The notes beneath the pieces are model-generated. The model saw only the letters and a program-made list of their open reading frames with translations, made no database searches and was not told the origin of the DNA. A stretch of 64,000 bases of DNA from Candidatus Rhodoblastus alkanivorans (GTDB lineage: Bacteria; Pseudomonadota; Alphaproteobacteria; Rhizobiales; Beijerinckiaceae): the NCBI RefSeq assembly GCF_022760755.1, contig NZ_JAIVFP010000001.1, positions 2,708,001-2,772,000 of the forward strand, given 5' to 3'. Positions 1 through 60,153 of this stretch are shown piece after piece (position 1 is the first letter of the stretch; every line of letters starts with the position of its first letter). A program made the translations under genes and the position numbers.

Positions 1-436
1 CGCCTGACCAATGGCTGTTTCAGCCCGGTCAAGGTCGAAAGAAAAGCGGTGTCGCGCGGAGGGCCCGGCAAATCCGGAATCGGGCGATATCGCGCGGGGG
101 CAGCCAATCGGGACACCCCACGCCACGCCGAAGCAACACCGCCGTCGGTGGAAACTGGCTTGCTATTGATTTCAATGAAAACTTTTTCTTTTTCGCTTGC
201 CAAGCATAAGGTAACCGTCGAAATTATTAACGCTGCTTAAGGTGGCCTCGCCAGCGCGAACCTCACGCGCCCGCGAACCGCCGATGGCAGTGATTGTTGT
301 CGAAGTCCGATATCCAGCGACCAAAACGCGGAACGGCGGGGGCTTCGCCCTATCGTGACTGATCGGAATTTTTTCAGCTACCGGCGATCTTCGGTCGTCG
401 CAGGTGACGAAACATCCAAACCCACCGGGAGGCGGA
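1..436. other. Non-coding leader region before the repeat protein
   Basis: I see no convincing gene here. A short open frame at 49-240 has no recognisable protein features and no good ribosome site. The stretch at about 160-240 is much richer in A and T than its surroundings and could hold the promoter of the downstream secreted protein, but I cannot place hexamers with confidence. Confidence 0.4.
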
Positions 437-3400
437 ATGACGACCTATTATTTCACCGGCCGACTCGACAACGACTGGACCAGTGTGGAGTACGCCACCA
501 TCAATGGCACAAATACGACATTCGCGGCCAACTGGGGTTTGAGCACGAGCTATTCCCAGCAGGTCTACCTGCCCGGCCCCGGAGACAACGTCATATTGGC
601 GACGGGAACCGCCTATGCGCAGGTCGTCATCGGCGCCTCGACCTATCAGGGCTACAGCAGTCCGCTCGATATCAATTCACTGACCATCGATTCCGGGATG
701 GTGCTGGATCAGAACGCCGGTCCATTCACCATCTACTCGGCCCTGACCAACAACGGGACCTTCAATCTCAATGTCGGCCCGCTCATCTTCGGCCAGGCGG
801 TGGTCAGCAATGGCCAGATCACCGGCGGCGCCATTCAAAACAATGGTTACATCACAGTCGCGGGCGGCGCCTATCTCGACCTCAAGGGGACGGTGACGCT
901 TCAGGGCTCGGGCGTGATCACGATGGTAGGCGGAGACATTTATCATCAGGCCTATCTCACCGGCGCGGATCCCAATGGCGTCGCCGACCTGATCAATTAC
1001 AGCACAATCCAGGGCGCCGGCCTGATCACGGCGCATCCGGAATATCAATACGATCCCGCCGCGCCGCTGGTCATCGAAAACCACGGCTGGATCGAGGCGA
1101 CCGACAGCGCCAACGCGCTTGGAATCCACCTCAACAATGGCCCAGGCGGCGGGCTGACCAATTCCGGTTTCGTCGAAGCGACACTCGGCGCCACGCTGAA
1201 TATTTGGGCCACCCGGATCGACCAGACGTCCAGCGGCGTCATCGCCGCCTATGGCGCCGGCTCGACAGTCATCATCAACGACGCATATCTGGCCGGCGGC
1301 ATGATCGACGGATCAGGCGGCGGCACGGTGAACTTCGCCCCAACTGGCTATGGTGGCTTCGACACACTCGACGGAAGCGGCGCCGACGGCGCCGTCACCA
1401 TCGGCGCGGGCGGCAAGCTGGTGATTCGCGAACGAACAACGGTCTTGGGAACGATTACCAACCATGGCGAAATCGACATCAATTATCAGCTCATGGTCGG
1501 CACGGGCGATGTGACGCTGAACGGTGGCGGCAAGGTGATCCTTTCGGGCACGGGCCTCCAGCAGCTGACGGGCGCAAGCTCGACGACCGCGACGACCCTG
1601 CACAATGTCGACAACACGATTTCCGGCGCGGGCATCATCGGCGCCGGAACCTCATCCGGCCAACTCGGCAATCTCTTGGTTCTTGACAACCAGGCTTCTG
1701 GCGTGATCGACGCCAACACGAGCGGCGCGAACATCTTCATGGATAATGCGGTTTCCAACGCAGGCGTCCTGGAGGCGACTAGCGGAGGGGCGCTGATCAT
1801 CCAATCGACCAAGATCACTCAGACTTCCAGCGGGCAGATCGCAGCCTATGGCGTGGGATCGCAGGTCTATTTGCAATATGGCGTGACGGTTGTCGGCGGG
1901 ACGATCGGCGGCGGCTCGGGCGGCGAGGTTATCTCCACCTATGGCCCCAACACCATCGACGGAAGCAGCGCCGCGGGCGCGGTGACCATCGGCTCCGGCG
2001 GCAAATTGGTAATCGGCGACACGACGACCGCGCTGGGAACCATCGTCAACCACGGCGAGATCGACCTCAACGGGACCTATAACGCGCTCATCATTGGCGA
2101 CGGCGGCGTCACGCTGACCGGCGGCGGCAAGGTCGTACTGACCACCACTTACGCCGACCTTATCGCGGGAAGCAATCCGACGACAGCGACGACTTTGCAC
2201 AATGTCGACAACACGATTTCCGGCGACGGCATGGTCGGCGGCTACAACGGACTGTTGGCGTTCGACAACCAGGCGGCCGGGGTGATCGACGCGACCACCG
2301 CCGGAACGGCGCTTTCGATCTTGACGGGAAGCGACCTCGTCAACAACGGCACGCTCGAGGCTGACGGCGGTCTGCTCAAGATCTACGACGCGGTGACCGG
2401 TTCGGGACAGGCGCTGATCAAGAATGGCGGCGAGATCGATACCGAATATACATTCGACCAGAACGTGACCTTCGCTGGCTCGGGCCTTTTGCGCCTTTAT
2501 CAGAGCTATAGCGGCGTTGTGAACGGCTTCGCCGCGGGCGATTCCATCAACGTCGCCTCCGCGAGCGGTTCAAATCCCGCCGATTATGAACTGGTCTGGC
2601 GGCCCCAAGCCGGAGGCGGCTTGCTGAAGATCGTCGACACGGCCTATTCGTCGGTCGTCGCGACCCTGAAATTTTCCGGCTCCTTCGCCGGCGAAGCCTT
2701 TCAAATGGCCATCAACAATGACGGAACCTTCCAAATCAGCCTCGCGTCGGCACCCTATGCCGATCCGGCGCCAGGGGATGTGATGGTGACGGATGTCCAG
2801 GGCCAAAATTACACGGCCTACCAGCAAAACTATCGTGGCGGGGTCTATCAGGGAACGCAATATGACTTCGCCGCATCTGGCCAAGCCTACAGCGACTACG
2901 CCTATGACTATTCGGCCGGCGGCGCCTTCATCGGCTCGAAATTCTTTTATGCCGGCGCCGCGAACGCACCCTATTCCGGCTATGAATACGACTATGACGG
3001 CGCCGACCGCCTGACGCGGGTCGCTTTCACCGGCGCGGCCGGAAGCACCTATTCCGCCTATGAATACGATTATGTCGGCGGCGTGTTCGCCGGTTCGAAA
3101 TTCGACGTCGCGGCGCCGTCTGGCGCGGCCTATTCGTCCTATGAACTCGACTACAATTCTTCCGGCGCCTTCGTCGGCGATAAGTTCTTCTTCAAGAATA
3201 TCGTGGGCCAGTCCTACACCGGCGAGGAAGAGGACTTCGATGCCAGCGGCGCCCTGTCGCGCGTCGTGCTGACCGGCGTGGCGAATCAAGCCTATCAATC
3301 GCTCGAACTCGATTATGCGGGCGGGACCTTCGAGGGCTACAAAATGTTCCTCTCCGGGATCAAGAATCAGAGCTATACGGCCGAGGAAGTGGACGTCTCG

Positions 3401-3919
3401 GCGGCGGGCAAATTGCAAAAAGTCGTCTATTCCGGCTTGTCATCGACGCCCTATTCCTCGGTCGAGCAGGATTATTCCGGCTCAACGGTCACCGACACCA
3501 TCTATAATTTCACCAATGTGTCGGGCCAGTCCTATGACGCCTATCACGTCATGGACAATGTGAGCGGCGTCGCGCTGCAGGAGACATTCGACCTCAACAG
3601 CGGCGGCCATGCCCTCGTCGCCTTGACCGGCGGCCAGACGCTGACGAGCCTGGGCGGCGACAAAATGACCGGCTCCGGCGCGACGACCTTCGTGTTCAAC
3701 GCCATCTATGGCGCCGATACGATCACCAATTTCAGCGCCGGCGACACGATCTCGTTGCCGACGTCGGAATTCGCCGATTTCAACACCATGATGCAGCACA
3801 CCACGAATATGGGAGCCAACGTGCTCATAAGCGCGGCGGACGGCGACACCCTGACATTGAAGAACATGGATGTGACGACTCTCGCGGGGATGGCGGCGAA
3901 TTTCACATTCCACGCCTGA
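437..3919 (+). CDS. Large secreted repeat protein, probable type I secretion substrate
   Basis: Predicted 1160-residue extracellular or cell-surface protein of unknown function. The first two thirds is Gly/Ala/Thr/Asn-rich beta-type sequence with long internal duplications, for example two copies of a module running from GAVTIG through TTLHNVDNTISG. The last third has about ten 26-28-residue repeats keyed on YSxYExDY. The C-terminus (GADTITNFSAGDTISL and following) resembles the C-terminal part of RTX/serralysin-type proteins exported by type I secretion, and there is no N-terminal signal peptide, which fits that route. I chose the ATG at 437 because GGGAGG lies just upstream; a GTG at 404 in the same frame has no such site. 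No ABC exporter is next to it, so the export route is inferred. It could instead be an adhesin or S-layer-like protein. Confidence 0.75.
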   Translation: MTTYYFTGRLDNDWTSVEYATINGTNTTFAANWGLSTSYSQQVYLPGPGDNVILATGTAYAQVVIGASTYQGYSSPLDINSLTIDSGMVLDQNAGPFTIYSALTNNGTFNLNVGPLIFGQAVVSNGQITGGAIQNNGYITVAGGAYLDLKGTVTLQGSGVITMVGGDIYHQAYLTGADPNGVADLINYSTIQGAGLITAHPEYQYDPAAPLVIENHGWIEATDSANALGIHLNNGPGGGLTNSGFVEATLGATLNIWATRIDQTSSGVIAAYGAGSTVIINDAYLAGGMIDGSGGGTVNFAPTGYGGFDTLDGSGADGAVTIGAGGKLVIRERTTVLGTITNHGEIDINYQLMVGTGDVTLNGGGKVILSGTGLQQLTGASSTTATTLHNVDNTISGAGIIGAGTSSGQLGNLLVLDNQASGVIDANTSGANIFMDNAVSNAGVLEATSGGALIIQSTKITQTSSGQIAAYGVGSQVYLQYGVTVVGGTIGGGSGGEVISTYGPNTIDGSSAAGAVTIGSGGKLVIGDTTTALGTIVNHGEIDLNGTYNALIIGDGGVTLTGGGKVVLTTTYADLIAGSNPTTATTLHNVDNTISGDGMVGGYNGLLAFDNQAAGVIDATTAGTALSILTGSDLVNNGTLEADGGLLKIYDAVTGSGQALIKNGGEIDTEYTFDQNVTFAGSGLLRLYQSYSGVVNGFAAGDSINVASASGSNPADYELVWRPQAGGGLLKIVDTAYSSVVATLKFSGSFAGEAFQMAINNDGTFQISLASAPYADPAPGDVMVTDVQGQNYTAYQQNYRGGVYQGTQYDFAASGQAYSDYAYDYSAGGAFIGSKFFYAGAANAPYSGYEYDYDGADRLTRVAFTGAAGSTYSAYEYDYVGGVFAGSKFDVAAPSGAAYSSYELDYNSSGAFVGDKFFFKNIVGQSYTGEEEDFDASGALSRVVLTGVANQAYQSLELDYAGGTFEGYKMFLSGIKNQSYTAEEVDVSAAGKLQKVVYSGLSSTPYSSVEQDYSGSTVTDTIYNFTNVSGQSYDAYHVMDNVSGVALQETFDLNSGGHALVALTGGQTLTSLGGDKMTGSGATTFVFNAIYGADTITNFSAGDTISLPTSEFADFNTMMQHTTNMGANVLISAADGDTLTLKNMDVTTLAGMAANFTFHA
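1365..2240 (+). repeat. Long internal duplication in the secreted repeat protein
   Basis: Two in-frame modules of about 95 residues recur at about 1365-1650 and 1956-2240. Both run through DGSxAxGAVTIGxGGKLVI, a TITNHGEID or TIVNHGEID segment, a GGGKVxL segment and TATTLHNVDNTISG. The copies differ at many third positions and in some residues, so the duplication is not recent. Confidence 0.75.
2810..3592 (+). repeat. Tandem 26-28-residue repeats (YSxYExDY type)
   Basis: About ten consecutive protein repeats, each beginning with a motif such as YSDYAYDY, YSGYEYDY, YSAYEYDY or YSSYELDY, followed by a Gly-rich turn and a KFFF-like strand. Units alternate between GGxFxGxKF and GxLxRVxFTG types, suggesting a two-unit super-repeat. 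Later units are more diverged (YTGEEEDF, YTAEEVDV, YSSVEQDY). Confidence 0.8.
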
Positions 3920-4098
3920 CGAGCGCAACAGCCGTTCGAAGGCGTCGGAACTGAATTCTGGCGCCGACCGAATCAGCGGCGGACGGGTATGCCCGGCCGC
4001 CCGGGCGTTGCGGCGAAAGCTGCGCCTCGGCTGAACCAGGACCCCATCGAACCGAACCGCGGCTTTCCCTCCGGCCGCGAGTTATTCTACACAGCCGC

Positions 4099-5508
4099 AT
4101 GACAGAAACACGAAATCCCTCCCCTGCCCCAATCCACGTTATCGGCGGCGGCCTCGCCGGCTCCGAGGCCGCGTGGCAGATCGCTCGCGCTGGCGTTCCC
4201 GTCGTGCTGCACGAAATGCGCCCCGTGCGCGCCACCGACGCCCACAAGACCGGGCTCTGCGCCGAATTGGTCTGCTCCAATTCCTTCCGCTCCGACGACA
4301 GCGAAACCAACGCCGTCGGCGTGCTGCATCGGGAAATGCGGGCGATGGATTCGCTGATCATGCGCTGCGCCGACGCCAATCAGGTGCCGGCGGGCGGGGC
4401 GCTGGCGGTGGACCGCGACGGCTTCGCCGCCTCCGTCACCCTGGCGCTGGAAAAGGAGCCGCTGATCGAAATCCGGCGGGAGGAAGTGGCGGGCCGGCCC
4501 CCGGCGGAATGGGACAATGTGATCGTCGCCACCGGGCCGCTCACCTCCCCCGCGCTCGCCGAAGCGATCGGCGCCCTCACCAGCGAGGCGGAGCTCGCCT
4601 TCTACGACGCCATCGCGCCCATCGTTTACCGCGACTCCATCGACATGGAGAAGGCGTGGTTCCAGTCGCGCTACGACAAGGCCGGGCCGGGCGGAACCGG
4701 CGCCGATTACATCAACTGTCCGCTCGACCGCGAGCAATACGAGGCCTTCGTCACCGCCTTGATCGAAGGCCCCAAGACCCAGTTCAAGGATTTCGAGAAG
4801 ACGCCCTATTTCGACGGCTGCCTGCCGATCGAGGTCATGGCCGAGCGCGGCCGCGAGACCCTGCGCCATGGGCCGATGAAGCCGGTGGGCCTGACCAACC
4901 CCCACAATCCAACCGTCAAACCCTGTGCGATCGTCCAGCTTCGGCAGGATAACGCATTGGGAACGCTCTATAATATGGTTGGCTTCCAGACCAAGCTGCT
5001 TTATGGCGCGCAAGTCGAAACCTTCCGGCAAATCCCCGGGCTGGAGCGCGCCGAATTCGCCCGGCTCGGCGGCCTGCACCGCAACACTTTTCTCAATTCG
5101 CCGAAGGTTCTCGACGAAAAGCTGCGGCTGAAGGCCGAGCCCCGCCTGCGCTTCGCCGGCCAGATCACCGGCTGCGAGGGCTATGTCGAGAGCGCCGGCA
5201 TCGGCCTGATCGCCGGGCGCATGGCGGTGGCCGAACGCCTGGGGCGCGACCTTCCGCCGCCGCCCCGGACCAGTGCGCTCGGCGCCCTGCTCAACCACAT
5301 CACCGCCGGCCATATCGAGACGATTGACGCCGGGCCGCGCAGCTTCCAGCCGATGAACGTCAATTTCGGCCTGTTCCCGCCGCTCGACTTCACCCCAAAA
5401 TCGCCGGACGGCAAGCGCCTGCGGGGACCGGAAAAAGCCGTGGCGAAGAAGCGCGCCCTGTCGCAGCGCGCCGAGGCGGATTTGCGCGCCTGGCTGGCGG
5501 CTGGCTGA
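4099..5508 (+). CDS. trmFO: Methylenetetrahydrofolate-tRNA-(uracil-5-)-methyltransferase TrmFO
   Basis: Folate- and FAD-dependent enzyme that makes 5-methyluridine at position 54 of the tRNA T-loop. The N-terminus has the FAD-binding Rossmann motif [14 protein letters not shown] at about residues 16-29, followed by the family-typical [10 protein letters not shown] and [14 protein letters not shown] segments. Further family blocks include [37 protein letters not shown] and [10 protein letters not shown]. At 469 residues it is the usual length. It stands alone between the repeat protein and the kdp operon, and I see no frameshift. Confidence 0.96.
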
Positions 5509-5964
5509 TCATTTCCGTGGCGCCATGTGGCGAAATTCGATTTTGGGCGCAGCGCCGTAGAACGAAGGTCCGGTCAAGGATCGTTAGCGGCCTAACCGGC
5601 AAAGGCAGAGTCGCGCCATCAGCGGAAATTTTCGGTCGGCCAGCCTTATTTCCGGAATCGACACCGAGAGAGATGTCCTGCTCGGCCTGTGCTATCGCCT
5701 TCGCGTCGGATTGAAACATGTCTTCCGCAGTCACCTCCTGCCGCTCTGACATGATCGCCGCCACGAATCTCGATCTTCTGCGCTGAAGCGGACGGGATCA
5801 TCGATTTTCGTCAGGTAGCGCCTCTGCTTGCATCCGGCGCCCACGGCGCACTGCCGGACAATAAATCCTTACGGGCGCCTTATGCGGCGCAACGGATTTC
5901 TCCGTCGAACTTTTATGCTGATCCGACCAATCTTCGCTCCGGAAAAACCGCAAAGGAGCGAGAC
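5509..5964. other. Intergenic region upstream of the kdp operon
   Basis: No convincing gene. A reverse-strand frame at 5390-5764 overlaps the end of trmFO and looks like chance coding. The right-hand half is the likely control region of the kdp operon, with a direct repeat at 5867-5890 and a strong ribosome site (AAAGGAG, near 5951) before the first small gene. Confidence 0.5.
5867..5890 (+). promoter_or_regulatory. Tandem direct repeat, candidate KdpE operator
   Basis: Two adjacent copies of a 10-12 base element, CCTTACGGGCG and CCTTATGCGGCGC, lie about 75 bases upstream of the first kdp-operon ATG. OmpR-family regulators such as KdpE usually bind tandem direct repeats about one helical turn apart, so this is a plausible operator. 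The assignment rests only on arrangement and position. Confidence 0.3.
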
Positions 5965-6048
5965 ATGTCGGATGTGATTTTCCTCGTCGCAGGCTTTGGC
6001 CTGATCGGCGCGATGGCGCTTTACGCCAACGCGCTCACCCGCGCCTGA
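5965..6048 (+). CDS. 27-residue single-span membrane peptide at the head of the kdp operon
   Basis: A tiny gene starting with MSDVIFLVAGFGLIGA and ending LTRA. It is nearly all one hydrophobic helix with an acidic N-terminus and a basic C-terminal end. The ATG follows AAAGGAG at good spacing, and its stop lies 11 bases before the kdpF start, so it is very likely translated and co-expressed with kdp. I do not recognise a named family. It resembles KdpF in size and topology, so it may be a second small stabilising subunit of the KdpABC complex. It could also be a leader peptide. Confidence 0.65.
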   Translation: MSDVIFLVAGFGLIGAMALYANALTRA

Positions 6049-6059
6049 AGGAGGCGGCC

Positions 6060-6146
6060 ATGTTCGAACCCATCGCCGGCCTCATCGTCGCCCTCGGCCT
6101 CGGCGTCTATCTCGTCGTCGCGCTGCTCAAGCCTGAGCGTTTCTGA
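6060..6146 (+). CDS. kdpF: Potassium-transporting ATPase small subunit KdpF
   Basis: 28-residue membrane peptide, starting [14 protein letters not shown] and ending LKPERF. Size, single hydrophobic segment and the C-terminal KPERF-type ending are typical of KdpF, which stabilises the KdpABC complex in the inner membrane. AGGAGG lies immediately upstream of its ATG. It sits 20 bases before kdpA. Confidence 0.88.
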
Positions 6147-6166
6147 TTCCCTCGGGAGACTTTCCC

Positions 6167-7876
6167 ATGACCCTCAACGGATGGCTGCAAATCGGCCTCG
6201 TCCTTGGCCTCGTGTTGATCACGGCGCGACCGCTGGGCCTTTACATGGCGGCGGTTTTCGACGGCCAGCGCAATTTCCTTTCGCCACTGCTCGAACCCGT
6301 CGAGCGCCTTTTCTATAAACTGGCGGGCGTGTCACCCGACAAGGAACAGGGCTGGCTCGCCTATACGCTCGCGATGCTGATGTTCAGTCTCGCCGGCTTC
6401 GCCTCGCTTTACGCCATCCTGCGGCTGCAGGCCTTTCTGCCGCTTAATCCGCAGGGTTTCGACAATGTCCCGCCGGATCTCGCCTTCAACACGGCGATCA
6501 GCTTCCTGACCAACACCAACTGGCAGGCCTATGGCGGCGAGACGACCATGAGCCATTTTTCCCAGATGGCGGGTCTCGCGGTGCATAATTTCCTTTCCGC
6601 CGCGACAGGCATTGCGCTGGCGCTTGCGGTGACCCGCGCCTTCGCCCGCCACGGCGCCGCGACGCTCGGCAATTTCTGGGTCGACCTGACCCGCTGCACT
6701 CTCTACGTGCTGCTGCCGCTCTCCATTGCGGTCGCCCTGGCCTTCGTCGCGACCGGCGTTCCCCAGACCCTGCTCGGCTCGGTGGACGCGACCACGCTCG
6801 AAGGCGCCAAACAGACGATCTCACTGGGCCCGGTCGCGAGCCAGGAGGCCATCAAGCAGCTTGGCACCAATGGCGGCGGCTTTTTCAACGCCAATTCGGC
6901 GCATCCGTTCGAAAACCCGAACGCCTTCGCCAATATCCTCCAGATCTGGTCGATGCTGGCGGTCTCCACCGCGCTGCTGATCGCCTTCGGCAAGATGGTC
7001 GGCTCGGTTCGCCAGGGCTGGGCGCTGGTCGCCAGCGTCGGCGTGATCCTGGTCGCGGGCGCGGCTCTGGCTTATTGGGCGGAAGCCTCCGGCAATCCGC
7101 TGCTGACGGCGCTGGGCCTCGACGGGTCCGCCGGCAATCTTGAGGGCAAGGAGACGCGCTTCGGCGTCGCTCTATCCGCCCTTTACGCCGCCGTGACCAC
7201 CGGCCTGTCCTGCGGCGCGGTCAACGCCATGCACGATTCCTTCACGCCTCTCGGCGGTTTCGTGCCGTTGCTCATGATCCAGTTGGGCGAGGTGCTGCCG
7301 GGCGGCGTAGGCTCCGGACTTTATGGTCTGGTCGTCTTCGCCATTCTCTCGGTGTTCATCGCCGGGCTGATGGTCGGCCGCACCCCGGAATTTTTGGGCA
7401 AGAAGATCGAAGCGCGGGAAATCAAGCTGGCCATGCTTGCCGTGCTGATCCTGCCGTTGTCGATTCTCGGCTTTTCCGCGGTCGCCGCGGTCCTGCCGGT
7501 CGCCCTGGCGAGCCTCGCCAATAAGGGACCGCACGGCCTGTCGGAGATCCTCTATGCCTATACGTCGGCGACCGGCAACAACGGCTCCGCCTTCGCCGGC
7601 CTCAGCGCCAACACGCCATGGTTTAACGTCACCACCGGCATCGCCATGGCGCTCGGACGCTTCGGCTATGTCGTGCCGGTGATGGCCATGGCCGGCTCGA
7701 TCGCCGCCAAGAAGAAGGCCGCCGCCTCTGCTGGCACGTTTCCCACTGACGGGCCGCTGTTCGTCGGCCTGCTGGTCGGCGTCATCCTGATCGTCGGCGG
7801 CCTGCAATTCTTCCCGGCCCTCGCGCTGGGGCCGATCGTCGAGCATGTCCTGATGCTCGCCGGCAAGACTTTCTGA
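6167..7876 (+). CDS. kdpA: Potassium-transporting ATPase subunit KdpA
   Basis: Membrane subunit that selects and conducts K+ in the high-affinity KdpFABC pump. It has about ten hydrophobic spans and the pore-loop motif [19 protein letters not shown] near residue 230, plus later filter-type segments ([21 protein letters not shown] and [14 protein letters not shown]). At 569 residues it is full length. A ribosome site (GGGAG) precedes the ATG. It belongs to one transcription unit with kdpF, kdpB and kdpC, spaced by 10-20 bases. Confidence 0.97.
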
Positions 7877-7887
7877 CGGAGCTTTCC

Positions 7888-9960
7888 ATGTCTGCGAAAT
7901 CCGAAGCGAAACACACGCTCGCGCTTTTCGACCCTGGCATCATTGGCCAGGCGGCGGCGGATGCGTTCAAGAAGCTGGCGCCGTCGCAATTGATGCGCAA
8001 TCCGGTGATCTTCGTCACCGAGGTCGTCGCGGCGCTCGTCACCCTCCTCTGGCTGCGCGACACGATCAATGGGACGGGCGCGCCGTTCTTTTCCGGCCAG
8101 ATCGCCGCCTGGCTCTGGTTCACGGTTCTCTTCGCCACTTTCGCCGAAGCCGTGGCGGAAGGACGCGGCAAGGCGCAGGCCGCGACCCTGCGCGCGACCC
8201 GTTCGGACACGATGGCCAAGCGCCTCATGGACCCGGACGGCCGCAGCGGCCTTTCCGCCGTGGTCCAGGCGGTTTCGGCGCTCGACCTGAAGGTCGGAGA
8301 CGTCGTCCTGGTCGAGGCCGGCGATCTGATCCCCTCCGACGGCGATATCATCGAGGGCGTCGCCTCGGTCAATGAAAGCGCGATCACCGGCGAATCCGCG
8401 CCGGTGATCCGCGAGGCGGGCGGCGACCGTTCGGCGGTGACCGGCGGCACCACGGTCCTTTCCGACTGGATCAAGGTGCGCATCACCGCACAAGCGGGCG
8501 AAACCTTCATCGACCGCATGATCGCTCTGGTCGAAGGCGCGGAGCGGCAGAAGACGCCGAACGAACTGGCGCTTTCGGTCCTGCTCGCCGGCCTGACCCT
8601 GATCTTCCTGATCGCGGTGGCGACGCTTTACGGGCTGGCGGTCTATTCCGGCGCCGCGCCTACCGTCGTCGTGCTGGTGGCCTTGCTGGTGACCCTCATT
8701 CCCACCACCATCGGCGGCCTGCTGTCGGCGATTGGCATCGCCGGGATGGACCGCCTGGTCCGCTTCAACGTGCTGGCCACTTCGGGCCGCGCCGTCGAGG
8801 CGGCGGGCGACGTCGACACCTTGTTGCTCGACAAGACCGGCACCATCACCTTCGGCAACCGCATGGCCAGCGAATTCATCGCGCTGCCGGGCGTCGAACT
8901 CCGCAAGCTGGCGGAAGCCTCGCTGCTGGCCAGCCTCGCGGACGAAACGCCCGAGGGCCGCTCGATCGTCGCGCTCGCCAAGGGTGATTTCGGCCTGACT
9001 GAGCCCGACCTTGCCGGCAAGGCGCCTGTCGTCATCCCCTTCGCCGCGCAGACGCGCCTGTCGGGCGTCGAGGTCCAGGGGCGCAGCGTCCGCAAAGGCG
9101 CGGTCGATTCCGTGCTGAAATTCGCCGGCCTGACGTCCGAACAGGCGCCCACGGAATTCCGCCACGGCGTCGAGCGCATCAGCCGGTCCGGCGGCACGCC
9201 GCTGGCGGTCGCGGAAAATGGCGTGCTGCTCGGCCTCATCCATCTCAAGGACGTGGTCAAGCCGGGCATCAAGGAGCGCTTCGCAGCCTTGCGCGCCATG
9301 GGCATCAAGACGGTGATGATCACTGGCGACAATCCGCTCACCGCCGCGGCGATCGCGACCGAGGCTGGCGTCGACGATTTCCTCGCCGAGGCGACCCCGG
9401 AGGACAAGCTCAGATTCATCCGCAAGGAGCAGACCGGCGGCCGGCTTGTCGCCATGTGCGGCGACGGCACCAATGATGCGCCGGCCCTCGCCCAGGCCGA
9501 TGTCGGCGTCGCCATGCAGACCGGGACGCAAGCCGCGCGCGAGGCCGGCAACATGGTCGATCTCGACAGCGATCCGACCAAGCTGATCGAGATCGTGGAA
9601 ATCGGCAAGCAGCTCCTGATGACGCGCGGCTCGCTGACGACCTTCTCAATCGCCAATGACGTGGCGAAATATTTCGCCATCCTGCCGGCCCTGTTCGTCG
9701 CGACCTATCCGGAGCTTGGCGCGCTCAATGTCATGCATCTGGCTTCGCCGCAATCGGCGATCCTGTCGGCGGTGATCTTCAACGCCCTCATCATCGTCGC
9801 CCTCATCCCGCTGGCGTTGCAGGGCGTCTCCTATCGCGCCGTCGGCGCGGCGGCGCTGCTGCGGCGCAATCTGTTGATTTACGGCGTCGGCGGGCTGATC
9901 GCGCCCTTCATCGGCATCAAGCTGATCGACCTTGTGGTCGCGGCGCTGCACCTGGCTTGA
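7888..9960 (+). CDS. kdpB: Potassium-transporting ATPase ATP-binding subunit KdpB
   Basis: P-type ATPase catalytic subunit that energises K+ uptake through KdpA. Visible motifs in order: the actuator loop ([10 protein letters not shown]), the phosphorylation site DKTGTIT near residue 314, the nucleotide-binding domain, and the hinge motif [12 protein letters not shown] near residue 527. There are membrane spans at both ends. Length is 690 residues, normal for KdpB. All P-type signatures are intact, in contrast to the broken P-type ATPase at 52703-55181. Confidence 0.97.
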
Positions 9961-52565: not shown

Positions 52566-52702
52566 ACAGAAACGAAGTGGCGGAACCTGCCCCGACCCTT
52601 AAATTGCCACTCCAATGTGAAAATCGGGAAATCAGATTGACGCGGGACGTCGCTCTCCCCCGCCGTCCCGCCGGCGAAATCCGCAAAATCGTGAGGATTC
52701 CC

Positions 52703-55181
52703 ATGAGCGCCACGGACGCAAAAAGCCCGGCCGTATCTGGCCAGCGCGTCACGCCGCTCGACGAGGCCGCCGCCAAGGGCCTGACCGAGGCCGAGGCCGC
52801 CCGCCGCCTCGCGCAATATGGCCCCAACGCCCTGATCGAGCATCGCGTCAGCGCTCTCGCCCGTCTGGCGCATTTCTTCTGGGGCCCCATCCCGTGGATG
52901 ATCGAAGTCGCCGCCGTCCTCTCGGCGGTGGTGCGCCATTGGCCCGATTTCGTGGTCATCATGGTCATGCTGGTGCTCAATGCGGCGGTGGGCTTCTGGC
53001 AGGAATTCAAGGCCGACAACGCCATCGAACTGTTGAAGCGCCGCCTCGCCCTCCAGGCGCGCGTGCTGCGCGACGGCCAATGGCAGGACGTCGCCGCGAG
53101 CGAACTCGTCCCCGGCGACGTCATCTCGATCAAACTCGGCGGCATCGTGCCGGCGGACGTCACTTTGCTCGACGGCGATTATCTGGGCGTCGATCAATCG
53201 GCTTTGACCGGCGAATCCCTGCCGGTCGACAAGAAGCCGGGCGACGAGGCCTATTCCTGCTCCATCGCCAAACAGGGCGAGATGACCGCCGTGGTCACCG
53301 CCACCGGCATGAACACCTTTTTTGGCAAGACCGCCCATCTGGTCCAACAGGCCAAGAGCGCCTCCCATTTCCAGCGCGCCGTGCTGAAAATCGGCAATTT
53401 CCTGATCCTCATCACCATCGGCTTGGTCGTGGTCATCGGGCTCGCCGCTTTGTTCCGCCACGATCCGCTGATCGAAACGGTCCAGTTCGCCCTCATCCTC
53501 ACCGTCGCCTCGATTCCCGTCGCCCTGCCCGCGGTGCTCTCCGTCACCATGGCGGTGGGCGCCAAAAGCTCGCTCGCATGAAGGCGATCGTCTCCCGGCT
53601 GGTGTCGATCGAGGAAATGGCCGGCATGGACATGCTGTGCACCGACAAGACCGGCACGCTGACCAAGAACGAACTGACCTTGGGCGCGCCGAGCCCCGCG
53701 GCGAACGTCGCGCCCGAAGCCCTCCTTCTCGCCGCCGCCCTCGCCTCGCGCCGCGACGCGCCCGACGCCATCGACGCCGCGATCCTCGCCGGCGTCACGG
53801 ACGAGAACGCCTTCGCGCCCTACAAGCTGCTGTCTTTCAAGCCTTTCGACCCGGTCGCCAAGCGCGCCGAGGCGGAAATCGAAACCGCCGACAGCAAGTT
53901 CCGCGTGGCCAAGGGCGCGCCGCAGGTTATCATCGATCTCTGCAATCCCACGGATGAAGAACGCCGCGCCATCGCCACCCAGGTCGACGCCGACGCCGCC
54001 AAGGGCTTCCGCACCCTTGGCGTGGCGCGGACCGACGCCGACGGGAACTGGCGCTTCCTCGGATTGCTCGCCCTGTTCGACCCGCCGCGCGACGACAGCA
54101 AGTCGACCATCGCCGCCACAAAGGCGATGGGGGTGGAAATCAAGATGGTGACCGGCGACCACGAGGCGATCGCCCGCCAGATCGCGGGCCAACTCGCGCT
54201 CGGGACCAATATCGTGGTCGCGGAAAATGTCATCGGAAAAGACGCGCCCGCCGATCGGCTGCCGGCCATCGTCGCCGCCGACGGCTTCGCCCGCGTCTTT
54301 CCCGAGCACAAGTTCGCCATCGTCAAGGCCCTGCAGGACGCCGGCCATATCGTCGGCACGACCGGCGACGGCGTAAACCACGCCCGGCGCTCAAACACGC
54401 CGATGTCGGCATTGCGGTCAGCGGCGCGACCGACGCCGCGCGCGCCGCCGCCGACGTCGTATTGACCGCCCCCGGCCTCTCGGTCATCACCCGCGCCATC
54501 GAGGAGGCGCGCCAGATTTTCGAGCGCATGACCGGCTACGCCATCTATCGCATCGCCGAGACGTCGCGCATCCTGCTGTTCATGACGGTCAGCATTCTGG
54601 TCTTCAATTTCTATCCCGTCACCGCGATCATGGTCGTGCTGCTCGCCCTGCTCAACGACCTGCCGATCATGATGATCGCTTATGACAACGCGCCGATCGC
54701 GGAAAAACCGGTGCGCTGGAACATGACGCGGGTGCTCACCGTCGCCTCCGTCCTCGGCATTTATGGCGTGTTTGGAAGTTTCGGCCTCTATCTGATCCTG
54801 CGCAATTATCTCGGCTTGCCGCAGCCGGAAATCCAGCCTCTGATCTTCCTGAAACCTCTGGTCGCCGGCCATATGACGATCTATCTGACCCGAAACCGGG
54901 GGCCGGTCTGGGCGGGCCCGTGGCCGAGTTGGAAGCTCGTCGTTCTCTGCGAGACGACCCAAATCCTCGGCGCGCTCGCCGTGGTCTACGGCTGGTTCAT
55001 GGCCCCGACGGGCTGGAAGCCGGCGCTGATGGTCTGGGCCTATGCTTTGATCTTGTTCGGCATCGGAAGTCTGGTCAAAATCGGAACCTACCGCCTGCTC
55101 GAAAACCGGGCCAAGCATCAGGCCCGCCATCTCGAAAGGATCGAGGGCCGGCTCGTCAATCACACGCGCCCGCGGAGCTGA
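52703..55181 (+). pseudogene. Plasma-membrane-type H+-ATPase (P3A P-type), broken by two frameshifts
   Basis: Full-length family layout is recognisable over three frames. The first piece holds the N-terminal spans, QSALTGESLPVDKK and AALFRHDPLIETVQFALILTV; it ends at 53581. The second begins with KLARMKAIVSRLVSIEEMAG and the phosphorylation motif LCTDKTGTLTKNEL, and ends near TGDGVN. The third covers the last ATP-hinge part and C-terminal spans to 55181. Deletion 1: an A-run (53564-53567) is one base short. Deletion 2: a C-run (54383-54385) is one short. Next to it the hinge Asp of TGDGVND is changed to His (CAC at 54379-54381). The original should be about 825 residues. It is an inactive pseudogene or an error-containing assembly. 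Confidence 0.9.
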
Positions 55182-55235: not shown

Positions 55236-56414
55236 TCAGCGCTCGAAACACCTGATGCCGTTCGCCTTCATGAAAGCGATATCGGCGCCCGTCGCATAGT
55301 CGCGATCCCACGCGTCGAGACGCGGCTGCATGATCTTGAAAAACAGCGGCGGAACGAGAGTGATGGTGACGAGCTTCAAATATCCAATAGGCAGTTCCGG
55401 GGCGTCGGCATTCACATGCAATTCGACCGAGGGACGCGCTGGATGTTCATGGTGATCGGCGTGCCGTCCGAGGTTGTTCAAGATCGCATTGGTCCCGGGA
55501 CGATAGACGTCCCAGGACAAGCGCGGCGTGACCGGCTCGTCTTCAACCCTCAACAATCCATAATGCTGGACGTAATCGATCGACTCGACCATGACCCGGC
55601 CGACCACGCCGCTCGCGACAAAAGCGAGCAGGCCCAGCGGCCCGCCGATGAACAGGAAAAAACCCGCGATCGCGATCAGAATAATCCAGCCCGAGACGAA
55701 CCGGTTCTGCAAGGACCATTGGGGCAGGCCGCGCCGCGCCATCCGCTCCTTCTCATATCGAGCCGCGAAGGCGTAATTCCCGGGAACCGACCGCGCAATA
55801 TAGCCATAGACGCTCATTCCGCGCCGCGCCGTGCCCACGTCGCAGGGGAGACCGACATAGCGATGATGACGCGCGACATGGTGCGTCATGAACCATGGAT
55901 TGAGAACCAATGCGCCGATCCAGTTCGACAGCGCCATTTTGATCCGCGAATCGGCGCAATGCATGAGTTCATGCGCGCTGCTGATCGCAACCGAATAATT
56001 GAAGCCCTGGGCGAACAGGGCCAGAATCAGGTCCAGGCTTGACGTCGATTTTCTCGACGCCTCCAAATCGATCCCCACATGATGAAGCAGGGCCGCCAAA
56101 CCCAAAGGATCGCCGCTTCCGAAATGATAGGCGAAAAAGGTCGCGTTCAAAACCAGAAGCACGACGGTCAGATAGAGGTTCCGCGCATGCATCGCGACAG
56201 GAGGAGCCTCGTCCAAGGTCCTGTCCGCCCCGCCGAAATCGTCGACGACATTGATCAGCACATTTGTCGCCACGAAGGGCGCCCAGACCCACACGCCGCC
56301 CGCAATCAGCCCGATCAGGCTCGCCAGAAAAAGCGCGTTCTGGGTCATGAAGCGCAAATGTGAAACTTTAAACGTCAGCAAACGTTCTCGAAGCGGCTCG
56401 ACTTGGAACTGCAT
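55236..56414 (-). CDS. AlkB-family membrane-bound monooxygenase (alkane hydroxylase-like)
   Basis: 392-residue integral membrane di-iron protein. Histidine boxes: HELMH near residue 153, THHVARHH, DYVQHYG and NNLGRHADHHEHP. Several hydrophobic spans precede and separate them. The layout is that of AlkB, but the second box (THHVARHH) differs from the usual EHNRGHH, so it belongs to a diverged group. It is intact, unlike the alkB copy at 21275-22473. Substrate could be an alkane, fatty acid or related lipid. The ATG follows AGGGA. Confidence 0.85.
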   Translation of the reverse strand: MQFQVEPLRERLLTFKVSHLRFMTQNALFLASLIGLIAGGVWVWAPFVATNVLINVVDDFGGADRTLDEAPPVAMHARNLYLTVVLLVLNATFFAYHFGSGDPLGLAALLHHVGIDLEASRKSTSSLDLILALFAQGFNYSVAISSAHELMHCADSRIKMALSNWIGALVLNPWFMTHHVARHHRYVGLPCDVGTARRGMSVYGYIARSVPGNYAFAARYEKERMARRGLPQWSLQNRFVSGWIILIAIAGFFLFIGGPLGLLAFVASGVVGRVMVESIDYVQHYGLLRVEDEPVTPRLSWDVYRPGTNAILNNLGRHADHHEHPARPSVELHVNADAPELPIGYLKLVTITLVPPLFFKIMQPRLDAWDRDYATGADIAFMKANGIRCFER

Positions 56415-56617
56415 AACGATTCCCTGTATTCAGCCCCAAAATTCTGGTTCAATCCCCAGGAATTGAAAACCCCATTTTCAAACTGTCTTAATTTTTTTTG
56501 CCGCCCTGTTTCGTTTTTGTCATGAAATTGACGGAAACTGGCTCAGGACGCATTTTCGGACGGATCGGCAACCGTCACGGATGGCGCGAAAACGGATCGA
56601 ACGTTCGGGACCGCCTG
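56415..56617. other. Promoter region before the DUF47-domain operon
   Basis: About 200 bases, no gene supported. It lies between the divergent AlkB-like gene and the DUF47-domain gene. A/T-rich sequence at about 56465-56515 (CTTAATTTTTTTTGCC) may contain promoter elements for both. In-frame upstream starts exist at 56498 and 56522 but lack a good ribosome site. Confidence 0.4.
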
Positions 56618-58555
56618 ATGGTAGGCAAAGTCGCAATAGTGGAATCGCTCGGCGAGCGCGCCGTGCTGCTGCCTGCCCTGATCGCCGAGGCGCTGGCGGC
56701 CAATGACAGGCTCAAGATCCGCCTCAGCCTGTTGCAGGAGGCTTCCGCCCACGCGGCAGAGCCGGGGCGGACCGCGTTGACGCTGGAGAACGAGCGCCGC
56801 TCCGTCGGCCTCGACGACGCCGCTCTTGCCGCCACCGTTTCCGGCGCCCGGCCGCTCGACGCCGCGCATTTCTCGGCGCCGGGCGCGGCGCTGCTCGCGA
56901 GCGGCTTCGCCGCCGATCTCGACGCCATGTACGCGCCGATCGACGTCGCGCGCGGCGCGGCGGCCGGCGCCCTGAAAGCGCGGCTCGACGCCGTCGTGGC
57001 CGCCCTGCCCGACCTCAAGGACGATCGCGTCGCCCACGCCCAGGTCCTGGCCCTCGCCTCGGCGAGCCGCGAGGCGGGCGACAGCCTGCATCTCCTGGTC
57101 ATGGACCTGCATCGCGCCATCAACCGCCTCGCCGCCGAAACCGCGGTCGAGGACATCGACGGCGCCCGTGCGGCGGGCCTCGATGAAGGCTCTCGCGCCC
57201 GCGTAAAGGCTTTCATGCGCGGCTTGAACCGGACGGCAGGCCTCGCCTTCGGCCATCCCGGCCTCGCAACCACCGCCGGGCGGGTCGGCGCGCGGCTGAC
57301 GATCCAGAACGACATCGGCACGACCGACGCCCATGTCCTGGTCGTCCATGTCGAGGGCTTGAGCGCGACGACGACCTATACCGACGTCCACCGCCCGCGC
57401 GCGAAATTCTTCATCGCGCTTTTCGACGGCCAGGGCGTGGAGTGGAGCCCGCTCGGCGAAAAGCGTCAGCGCAACCTCGCGGAAGGCGAGGTCTTCTATC
57501 TGCTCAATGGCGTTTACAAGGCGCGCGACGAGGCCGACCTCGACCGTTTCCTCACCTTTCTCGGCTCGCGCATCGTCTTTCTGATCGACTGGAACAAGGC
57601 GCGCAAGGCGCTCCAGCTTTTCACCGGCAAGGGCGCCGCCATCGCCATCCTGCTCGACGCCGCCCGCGGCGACGACGGCCATCGCGCCTTTCTCGAACTC
57701 GGCGGCGCAGAGCTGGTTTATGAGGCGATCCGCAATGCCGCGTCCGGGCGCATCGCTTATGGCGTCCCGCTGGAGCAGGCGCTCGGCGACGAGGAGTGCC
57801 GAGGCTTCTTGCGCCATGTGCTCCATGTCGCCTGCGCGGGGCTAAAGGACGGGCTCTCGACCCGGCTGATCCGCGACGAAATCCAGGCCGACCTGTCGCA
57901 GCGGCTTGGCGCCGCCGAACGCGAATTGCTCACCGTCGCGCTGCGCCATCTCGGCCTGACCCGCATGCTGGCGGGCATGATCGAGACGGTTCTTTCGACC
58001 GGCGCGGCGGCGAGCGCCGACGAGCGGAAAAACCTCGCCCGCCGCGCCAAGGCGCTCGAAGCCAAGGCCGACCGCCTGACCCTGGAGGCGCGAAAGATTT
58101 TCGCGCGGTTGCGCGACGCCGACGATCTCCTGCCCTTCGTGGACGAGATCGAATCCGCCATCGATGCATTGGACGAAGCCGCCTTCCTGATCAGCCTCGC
58201 CGAGAGCGACGGCGTCTTCGCCGCCCCGCTCGGCGAACTCTCGCGCATCGTGACCGAATCCGCCGCGCAGATGACCCGCGCGGTTGAAGGCGCCCTGGTC
58301 GTCCCCAAGGGCAAAAGGCTCGACGCCGCCTTCGCCCTGCAATGCATCGCCGCCGTCGCCGATTGCGAGCGCGCGGCGGATGACGCCGAGCGCACTGCCT
58401 TCGCAGCCGTGCTCGCCCCGGCGCCGGCGGCGATGGAAGCACGCGTGCTGGTGCTCGGCCTCGAAATCGCCCGCGCTCTGGAGGATGCGACCGACCGCCT
58501 CGCCCATGCCGCCTTTTCGCTGCGGGCGCGGCTGTTGCAGGAGCTTTCGGCATGA
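56618..58555 (+). CDS. Large protein with C-terminal DUF47/PhoU-like domain
   Basis: 645 residues, soluble, Ala/Asp/Arg-rich. The C-terminal ~200 residues (from about KALEAKADRLTLEARKIFARL and ADDLLPFVDEIESAIDALDEAAFLISL) follow the helical DUF47 pattern of phosphate-transport accessory proteins related to PhoU. The N-terminal two thirds, with NDIGTTDAHVLVVHVEG and VFYLLNGVYKARDEADLDRF, is not familiar to me. I start at ATG 56618 (MVGKVAIVESLGE), preceded by CGGGA. It overlaps by 4 bases the PPDK-like gene that follows, so the two proteins are made together and may interact. No phosphate transporter gene lies nearby. Confidence 0.7.
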   Translation: MVGKVAIVESLGERAVLLPALIAEALAANDRLKIRLSLLQEASAHAAEPGRTALTLENERRSVGLDDAALAATVSGARPLDAAHFSAPGAALLASGFAADLDAMYAPIDVARGAAAGALKARLDAVVAALPDLKDDRVAHAQVLALASASREAGDSLHLLVMDLHRAINRLAAETAVEDIDGARAAGLDEGSRARVKAFMRGLNRTAGLAFGHPGLATTAGRVGARLTIQNDIGTTDAHVLVVHVEGLSATTTYTDVHRPRAKFFIALFDGQGVEWSPLGEKRQRNLAEGEVFYLLNGVYKARDEADLDRFLTFLGSRIVFLIDWNKARKALQLFTGKGAAIAILLDAARGDDGHRAFLELGGAELVYEAIRNAASGRIAYGVPLEQALGDEECRGFLRHVLHVACAGLKDGLSTRLIRDEIQADLSQRLGAAERELLTVALRHLGLTRMLAGMIETVLSTGAAASADERKNLARRAKALEAKADRLTLEARKIFARLRDADDLLPFVDEIESAIDALDEAAFLISLAESDGVFAAPLGELSRIVTESAAQMTRAVEGALVVPKGKRLDAAFALQCIAAVADCERAADDAERTAFAAVLAPAPAAMEARVLVLGLEIARALEDATDRLAHAAFSLRARLLQELSA

Positions 58556-60153
58556 AAGGCGAAACACCGGAGCTGGGCCTGATCGGCCTCGGCGGCAACC
58601 ATGAGCTGCCGCCGGCGCTTTACGGCTCGAAAGCCGCCGAGCTTGCGCGCATGAGCGCGCTCGGGCTTCCGGTTCCGCCAGCCTTCGCCCTGTCCGCCAA
58701 CCTGTGCGCGCCCATACTCGCGGGCGAGAAGCAGGCGTTCGACCTCCTGCGCGCGGGGCTCGCCGAAGGCGTCGGGCTTCTGGAGAGCGCGACCGGGCGC
58801 CGCCTCGGCGACGCGCGCGAGCCTTTGTTCGTGTCGGTGCGCTCGGGCGCGGAAAAATCCATGCCCGGCATGCTGGAGACCATTCTCGACGTCGGGATGA
58901 ACCCGACGAGCGCGCATGGCCTCATTCGCGCGACCGGCAACCCCCGCCTCGCCTTTGATTCCCATCGCCGTTTCATCCAGATCTATGCCCAAGTGGTCGG
59001 CGGCATGGTGGCCCAGCCATTCGAGGAGGCCTTGGCGCGCATGATGCGCGCGGAAGACGCCGCGCATGAAGGCGAGCTCGATCCCGAGGCACTGGAGCGG
59101 CTGGCCGGCGAATTCCTGGCGCTGGCCGCCGCCGAAGAGGCCGCGCCGCCGCCCGACCCTGTTGCGCAGCTCTTTTTCGCGGCGCGCGCGGTCTATCTGT
59201 CCTGGCAAAGCCCGCGCGCCATCCTCTATCGCAAGATGAACGGGCTCGAAAATCTGCTCGGCACCGCCGTCACTATCCAGACCATGGTTTTCGGCAATTC
59301 GGGCGGAGCGTCCGGCTCCGGCGTCGCCTTTTCCCGCGATCCCGCGACCGGCGCCAAACAGCTCTATGCCGATTTCCTGTTCGACGCCCAGGGAGAAGAC
59401 GTGGTCTCGGGCCGGCGCACGCCGGTTGACGCCGGAGCGCTCAAGCGACGGCTTCCCGAGGTCGCGGCCCAGCTCGCGGCCGGCGCCGAAACCCTCGAAA
59501 AAGACCGGCGCGACGTGCAGGACGTTGAATTCACCGTCGAGAATGGCAAGCTCTTCTTCCTCCAGACCCGCTCCGCCAAGCGCACCCCGCGCGCGGCGCT
59601 GAAAATCGCGGTCGATCTGGCGACCGAAGGCCTGATCGACAAAAGTGAGGCCCTGCGCCGGGTCACCGACGTCGATCTGACGAAAGCGGGCCGCGCCGCT
59701 TTCGTCCAGGCGGCGCCGGCGGTCGCCAGGGCGACCGTCGCCGCGCCCGGCGTCGCCTGCGGCCGCGCCTGTTTCACCAGCGCCCAGGCCGAAGAGGTCG
59801 CGCGGCGCGGGGAGAAAGCCATCCTGATCCGCCGCGACACCTCCACGGAAGATGTCGCGGGCTTCGCCGCCGCCGACGGCATTCTCACCGCGATCGGCGG
59901 GCGCACGTCCCACGCGGCCGTCGTCGCCCGCCAGATGGGCAAGGCCTGCCTCGTCGGCTGCGCGACGCTTTCCATCGACCCGGACGACCGCGCCGCTGCG
60001 CTCGGTGAAAAGCGCCTGCGCCAGGGCGACTGGATCGCGCTCGACGGAACCACCGGCGAAATCTCGCTGGGCCAGCGCGACATTGCGATCGCGGAAGCGA
60101 AGGAAAGCGCGATTTTGCGGCATTGGCGGGATGAGGACGCGCGGCGCCGCTGA
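58552..60153 (+). CDS. PPDK-like protein with only ATP-grasp and phosphohistidine domains
   Basis: 533 residues related to pyruvate phosphate dikinase. The ATP-grasp part has RSGAEKSMPGMLETILDVG near residue 100, GTAVTIQTMVFGNSGGASGSGVAFSRDP and LFDAQGEDVVSGRRTP. The swivelling domain has the phosphohistidine motif GGRTSHAAVVARQMGKACLVG with His454. PPDK of about 880 residues also has a C-terminal PEP/pyruvate barrel of about 350 residues; here the gene ends right after the swivelling domain and no barrel gene follows. A different phosphate acceptor must therefore be used. The tight overlap with the DUF47-domain gene makes that protein the likely partner. Confidence 0.85.
   Translation: MKGETPELGLIGLGGNHELPPALYGSKAAELARMSALGLPVPPAFALSANLCAPILAGEKQAFDLLRAGLAEGVGLLESATGRRLGDAREPLFVSVRSGAEKSMPGMLETILDVGMNPTSAHGLIRATGNPRLAFDSHRRFIQIYAQVVGGMVAQPFEEALARMMRAEDAAHEGELDPEALERLAGEFLALAAAEEAAPPPDPVAQLFFAARAVYLSWQSPRAILYRKMNGLENLLGTAVTIQTMVFGNSGGASGSGVAFSRDPATGAKQLYADFLFDAQGEDVVSGRRTPVDAGALKRRLPEVAAQLAAGAETLEKDRRDVQDVEFTVENGKLFFLQTRSAKRTPRAALKIAVDLATEGLIDKSEALRRVTDVDLTKAGRAAFVQAAPAVARATVAAPGVACGRACFTSAQAEEVARRGEKAILIRRDTSTEDVAGFAAADGILTAIGGRTSHAAVVARQMGKACLVGCATLSIDPDDRAAALGEKRLRQGDWIALDGTTGEISLGQRDIAIAEAKESAILRHWRDEDARRR

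Follow-up and report, generated by a model that had tools for sequence, protein, structure and literature searches.

Dikinases of the pyruvate phosphate dikinase (PPDK, EC 2.7.9.1) type that do without the phosphoenolpyruvate (PEP)/pyruvate barrel, as well as dikinases divided between two proteins, are already known. VadK (Rv1127c) of Mycobacterium tuberculosis is a barrel-less PPDK encoded with an operonic partner, Rv1126c, and autophosphorylates on His422 (EMBO Rep 2026; PMC13400623). The HpeHI, PpsAB and CreHI systems are dikinases of two components that act on small molecules (JBC 2025; PMC12167813); their ATP-grasp domain stands alone, and the swivelling histidine domain shares a chain with the substrate domain. 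Rifampin phosphotransferase (RPH) combines, in a single chain, ATP-grasp and swivelling His domains with an acceptor domain that is not a barrel; its domain order is different and it has a rifampin-binding domain. Here we analyse a pair of overlapping genes in a 64,000-nucleotide stretch of Candidatus Rhodoblastus alkanivorans DNA (contig NZ_JAIVFP010000001.1, positions 2,708,001 to 2,772,000; hereafter the window), in which gene 2 encodes a barrel-less PPDK-type protein and gene 1 its partner. An earlier note, made from the sequence alone, had treated a PPDK without a barrel as unprecedented, which is not borne out, as VadK, RPH and HpeHI/PpsAB all show the principle. What are new are the clade to which gene 2 belongs, a partner that combines an unassigned conserved domain with a PhoU domain, and a link to low oxygen through FixK/FNR-type sites.

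Both open reading frames and their 4-base overlap lie where the earlier note had placed them. The features of the pair are as follows:

56618..58555, + strand: gene 1, the 645-amino-acid partner, with an unassigned N-terminal region and a C-terminal PhoU domain (from the open reading frame, a 53-member alignment and an AlphaFold2 model)
56618..57142, + strand: gene 1 residues 1-175, helical N-terminal region, ending in the invariant helix D-S-x-H158-x4-D163-L-H165-x3-N169
57143..57622, + strand: gene 1 residues 176-335, alpha/beta core and most conserved part, with H213, Q230-N-D232, H239, D256, H258, R261, D324-W-N326, R329 and K330
57899..58552, + strand: gene 1 residues 428-645, PhoU/DUF47 fold with four ExxxD motifs (481-485, 512-516, 584-588 and 622-626)
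58552..58555, + strand: ATGA overlap of the gene 1 stop and the gene 2 start (4 bases, within gcATGA)
58552..60153, + strand: gene 2, the 533-amino-acid barrel-less PPDK-type protein (from the open reading frame, Pfam and phmmer)
58618..59598, + strand: gene 2 residues ~23-349, ATP-grasp domain with K27, R97, D324, E326, Q338 and R340 invariant
59812..60057, + strand: gene 2 residues 421-502, swivelling phosphohistidine domain with T452 and H454 invariant (GGR-T-[SA]-H)

The only Pfam families matched by gene 2 are PPDK_N (1e-37) and the PEP-utilizers mobile domain (2e-21). Its residues 23-519 align with residues 17-517 of the Clostridium symbiosum PPDK (phmmer E 8e-128) and cover the ATP-grasp and swivelling domains with all the catalytic residues; in this alignment H454 (GGRTSH) falls on the catalytic His455, and VadK, which likewise consists of an ATP-grasp and a swivelling His domain, has its His422 in the same place. 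K27, R97, D324, E326, Q338 and R340 correspond to the nucleotide residues of PPDK (Lys22, Arg92, Asp321, Glu323, Gln335 and Arg337, respectively), and these six residues, together with T452 and H454, are invariant across 29 gene-2 proteins aligned with PPDK. The complete members of the group are 520-554 amino acids long. Pfam detects no PEP/pyruvate barrel in gene 2; tblastn searches with the PPDK barrel found nothing above chance level in the window and nothing at the homologous loci, except at one (L048) where the match belongs to a separate PPDK fragment. In the 4.35 Mb host genome barrels occur only inside an 817-amino-acid open reading frame and inside a separate full-length PPDK of 936 amino acids, so that no free barrel is available. 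The description of gene 2 as a PPDK ATP-grasp and swivelling-histidine protein without the barrel thus holds; the label 'orphan' that went with it does not, since the host retains a complete PPDK of its own and the gene pair is widespread among alphaproteobacteria.

In a maximum-likelihood tree, 32 gene-2 proteins form one group with 100/100 support. Set apart from it are 22 full-length PPDKs of the same order, four VadK-type plasmid proteins and a third group, of short proteins (~545 amino acids). The tree was midpoint-rooted, and we speak of a gene-2 clade on the condition that the root lies outside the gene-2 group. VadK-type proteins and gene 2 thus fall into separate clades, each with a support of 100, VadK being represented here by the four plasmid homologues and not by Rv1127c itself. 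The third short group consists of barrel-less proteins encoded directly behind glyS in a single family of the order (L133-L136); it forms a clade of its own, and the stretches fetched around these genes contain no barrel. The name that NCBIfam gives to gene 2 (NF004531, 'pyruvate, phosphate dikinase') says little about it, because most full-length PPDKs also exceed the cut-off of that model. Truncation of a PPDK in one strain, the possibility that the earlier note itself had raised against its proposal, is ruled out by the single well-supported group, whose members likewise lack the barrel, and by the conserved pairing with gene 1.

This pairing was surveyed at 80 public loci retrieved with gene 1 and at loci from 289 genomes of the class. 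Wherever the sequence continues past gene 1 (~90 loci, tblastn), gene 2 lies directly downstream on the same strand, and this holds for gene-1 homologues down to 36% identity. The exact 4-base overlap is present in ~40% of the public loci, the rest having small overlaps or gaps of up to 115 bases. The closest homologues of gene 1 come from Rhodoblastus-like Hyphomicrobiales. The spread of the pair is patchy: a real match to the gene-1 N-terminus was found in 12 of 297 genomes of the order and in nine of 289 of the class, the pair is missing from the sampled relatives in the same family, and plasmids carry it in Aquabacterium olei (Betaproteobacteria) and in Methylocella tundrae. Strict pairing despite such patchy distribution argues for one functional unit. 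The adjacency to a DUF47-type gene that the earlier note had proposed as a check is thus strictly conserved. On the M. tundrae plasmid the pair comes immediately after the thiolase, hydroxyacyl-CoA dehydrogenase, acyl-CoA dehydrogenase and enoyl-CoA hydratase genes of a cluster for fatty-acid beta-oxidation (L131, positions 1-9466). One contig labelled Terriglobia (Acidobacteriota; L088) carries the pair beside recA; it falls inside an alphaproteobacterial clade and is probably mis-binned.

The N-terminal ~415 residues of gene 1 match no Pfam family and take no name from the other libraries scanned, so the earlier note was correct in calling this region (~420 residues in its estimate) unrecognised. 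In the alignment of 53 sequences, 43 of the 160 positions of residues 176-335 (27%) are at least 98% identical, compared with 16 of 230 (7%) for the PhoU domain. Among the invariant residues are H158, D163, H165 and N169 of the helix that closes the helical region and H213, Q230, N231, D232, H239, D256, H258, R261, D324, N326, R329 and K330 of the core; by its composition, this assembly of His and Asp with Arg and Lys would fit a metal- or phosphate-handling site. The motif that the earlier note had picked out as part of a substrate or regulatory domain lies in this most conserved block, as would be expected more of a catalytic or acceptor site than of a mere regulatory domain. The AlphaFold2 model of gene 1 has a mean predicted local distance difference test score (pLDDT) of 89.9, and residues 1-412 folded alone reach 89.7 with the same succession of a helical region and an alpha/beta core. 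A Foldseek search with the N-terminus found no solved structure at E under 0.001, which does not make the fold new. The best VIA-align match was phage T4 MotA (Z 8.7 over 105 residues), followed at lower scores by YbjN and secretion-chaperone folds; we took all of these as a common arrangement and none as a convincing relative. Homology to the HpeH-like substrate domains was rejected, as no match to them was found, and so was a role as a defence system, PADLOC giving no match.

For the C-terminal part, the proposed DUF47/PhoU character proved well founded. Residues 466-632 match PhoU_div/DUF47 at 17.3 bits, under the Pfam gathering cut-off of 24.4. The assignment is nevertheless firm because the profile of the gene-1 family matches PDB 3l39 (E 5.9e-7), other family members reach PhoU_div at up to 1.7e-7, and the predicted fold of the last 218 residues superposes on 3l39 with Z 24.2 and a root-mean-square deviation of 2.9 over 205 residues. 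ExxxD motifs in PhoU proteins bind metal; the four in gene 1 are 96-100% conserved and have counterparts in 3l39. Gene 1 shares this fold and these motifs with the DUF47 (PhoU_div) proteins of Pit transporters, from which it differs in its extra ~415-residue N-terminus and in having a dikinase, not a transporter, as its partner.

In several lineages the region before gene 1 holds FixK/FNR-type boxes: the 150-base upstream stretches, 11.4 kb in all, contain eight matches at seven loci, as against 29 in the 1.17 Mb of the rest of these loci, a 28-fold higher density. At 15 Bradyrhizobium loci the pair lies beside a phosphoketolase gene with or without an acetate kinase gene. The order in Bradyrhizobium is xfp-(ackA)-gene 1-gene 2, preceded by the box TTGACCTCACGCAA. 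This box is a listed FixK2 site of bll2518-bll2517, which encode phosphoketolase and acetate kinase (PMC9104804), and that phosphoketolase is induced by microoxia (PMC6515984). Gene 1 and gene 2 may belong to the bll2518-bll2517 transcript; a literature search did not find the locus tags that adjoin bll2517. From these boxes it appears most likely that the pair is used when oxygen is low.

VadK also resembles the present system in being part of a two-gene operon with a dedicated partner. That partner is a ~200-residue MarR-like protein without a PhoU domain, as against 645 residues with a PhoU domain in gene 1. We represented the Rv1126c family by the 201-residue product of a gene beside an M. 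avium plasmid VadK homologue and collected 18 members of ~200 residues from VadK-type loci. The family is found among actinobacteria and in some proteobacteria, frequently inside catabolic clusters, and a VadK-type gene adjoins every copy checked. Pairwise BLASTP between gene 1 and the VadK partner was not significant, and there is no detectable overall homology. In the best profile match, the invariant helix of the VadK-partner family, DSYHTVWFELHEDLL, is aligned with DSLHRLVMDLHKALNRL of gene 1, with two invariant His residues equally spaced in both (DSxHxxxxELH, as in DSYHTVWFELH, in the partner family and DSxHxxxxDLH in gene 1). The strict two-His motif does not occur in the 335,000 residues of the other open reading frames of these loci, for a pattern that was written after both families had been seen. 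This likeness of the two helices may serve as a lead only. A search for further copies across Pseudomonadota with the VadK-partner profile gave no match and is uninformative, since the class-level search did give matches.

In our preferred reading, which we hold with middling confidence, the gene pair is a two-component phosphohistidine dikinase in which the N-terminal domain of gene 1 replaces the barrel, the PhoU domain has a regulatory part and the system is used at low oxygen. ATP would be bound in the ATP-grasp domain of gene 2 and its beta-phosphoryl group transferred to His454, as in PPDK; intact catalytic residues and the published autophosphorylation of VadK speak for this step. The swivelling domain would then visit the N-terminal domain of gene 1 in place of the barrel, as suggested by the strict pairing, by the loss of the barrel with retention of the catalytic residues and by the invariant residues of the gene-1 N-terminus, whose His, Asp, Asn, Arg and Lys would form the acceptor site. 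The phosphoryl group would pass to a small molecule bound by gene 1, which we favour, or else to a histidine of gene 1 itself. The PhoU domain, from its fold and ExxxD motifs, would probably bind metal and either mediate dimerisation or make the activity of the complex depend on phosphate or metal. Such a pair would resemble HpeHI, PpsAB and CreHI in being a two-gene phosphohistidine dikinase with a non-pyruvate acceptor, and would be split differently, gene 2 holding both the ATP-grasp domain and the histidine and gene 1 the proposed acceptor. The earlier note had argued that a different acceptor must exist. Its premise stands, as the loss of the barrel is real and conserved in the clade and gene 1 is the obvious candidate for the missing acceptor; the novelty it attached to a barrel-less PPDK does not. 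A phosphorelay as such, which it had also proposed, is possible. More tentatively, we suggest that the N-terminus of gene 1 is an undescribed acceptor domain that replaces the barrel in trans, which would make the pair a new class of two-component dikinase, gated by a metal- or phosphate-sensing PhoU domain and switched on by low oxygen, and that VadK and its partner are a distant sister system with the same two-histidine docking helix.

Several observations weigh against the dikinase interpretation. Contact and phosphotransfer between the two proteins are inferred. Across lineages the pair has no conserved neighbour other than its own two genes, and for this reason no substrate can be read from the neighbourhood. 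The promoter in the window has no FixK/FNR box within 350 bases and carries a different palindrome instead. Shuffled controls reach the profile score between gene 1 and the VadK partner in 2.5-6% of cases, which is at the edge of chance. Finally, PhoU proteins are usually regulators, and a purely regulatory gene 1 would also fit.

The last point leads to the strongest of the alternatives, a regulatory histidine kinase like VadK: gene 2 would autophosphorylate and, through protein interaction or phosphorylation, regulate enzymes of central metabolism such as those around phosphoketolase, acetate kinase or PEP carboxylase, and gene 1 would be a PhoU-gated sensor or chaperone and not an acceptor. 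The M. tuberculosis protein is reported to be regulatory and its operonic partner improves its solubility, PhoU proteins are themselves regulators, and xfp/ackA or a PEP carboxylase gene (the latter in Tistlia) are neighbours of the pair in some lineages. The adjoining enzymes vary from lineage to lineage, however, and the N-terminal core of gene 1 is far more conserved than its PhoU part and has many invariant polar residues, which points to an active site more than to a sensor. We consider this explanation possible, if on the unlikely side.

A relay for phosphate transport or sensing, in which gene 2 would phosphorylate gene 1 to control uptake and gene 1 would act like a Pit-associated DUF47 protein or the PhoU of the Pst system, draws on the PhoU fold with its ExxxD motifs, on the stand-alone DUF47 relatives of gene 1 that adjoin PHO4/Pit transporters, and on the genes for CHAD (polyphosphate-binding) proteins that adjoin the pair upstream in Roseiarcaceae and downstream in Acidocella. 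Unlike those stand-alone relatives, gene 1 has no PHO4/Pit phosphate transporter beside it in the window or at the ~14 loci examined, and the PhoU domain is not its most conserved part. The control of phosphate transport suggested in the earlier note is thus not supported, and we regard such a relay as improbable. A literature search, confined to one library, found no paper on DUF47 together with PPDK. That gene 2 borrows in trans the barrel of the full-length PPDK or of a PEP synthase, modulating PEP/pyruvate interconversion, is highly improbable: the host does have the full-length PPDK and the 817-residue barrel protein, but their barrels sit in complete open reading frames (that of PPDK with its own swivelling domain), and the dedicated partner of gene 2 is gene 1, not a barrel.

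If the two-component dikinase interpretation is true, PPDK-type phosphohistidine chemistry has been put to a new use through the replacement of the acceptor domain by a separate protein, and the barrel has been lost more than once (in the gene-2 clade, in VadK and in the third short group). The comparison also suggests that the mycobacterial VadK partner may do more than aid solubility and may function as an acceptor or a docking subunit. Bradyrhizobium, Xanthobacter, Methylocella and Acidocella, all well studied, are among the genera with the pair, so that the acceptor should be findable by standard genetics and labelling.

The VadK-type loci have some features of their own. In Rhodococcus LW-XY12 the VadK-partner domain forms one protein with an AMP-binding acyl-CoA ligase (L178:226-2397), and in R. 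opacus B4 a PEP-utilizing enzyme carries it fused to its C-terminus (L175:1-2367); these fusions suggest a catabolic, substrate-linked role for VadK-type pairs. At three loci (L127:8843-11244, L129:1694-4328 and L176:1397-3443) a PEP-utilizing (swivel) protein and a DUF7065 protein are encoded beside VadK-type pairs, within the same catabolic clusters, and resemble a second split dikinase.

Upstream of gene 1 in the window, a gene of the fatty-acid desaturase family (alkane-monooxygenase-like) lies on the opposite strand (55236-56414). Between these two divergent genes there is a perfect inverted repeat, TTGAAAA-N5-TTTTCAA (56464-56482), which was not found upstream of the homologues of gene 1. 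P-type cation ATPase genes are found near the pair in the window, in Tistlia, in Reyranella and in one Xanthobacter. The copy in the window, a P-type (H+/cation) ATPase gene at 52577-55181 on the + strand, appears to be split into three open reading frames, the frame changing near 53580 and again near 54400, which would make it a pseudogene or reflect sequencing or assembly errors; a relative near the pair in Tistlia (L025) is 69% identical.

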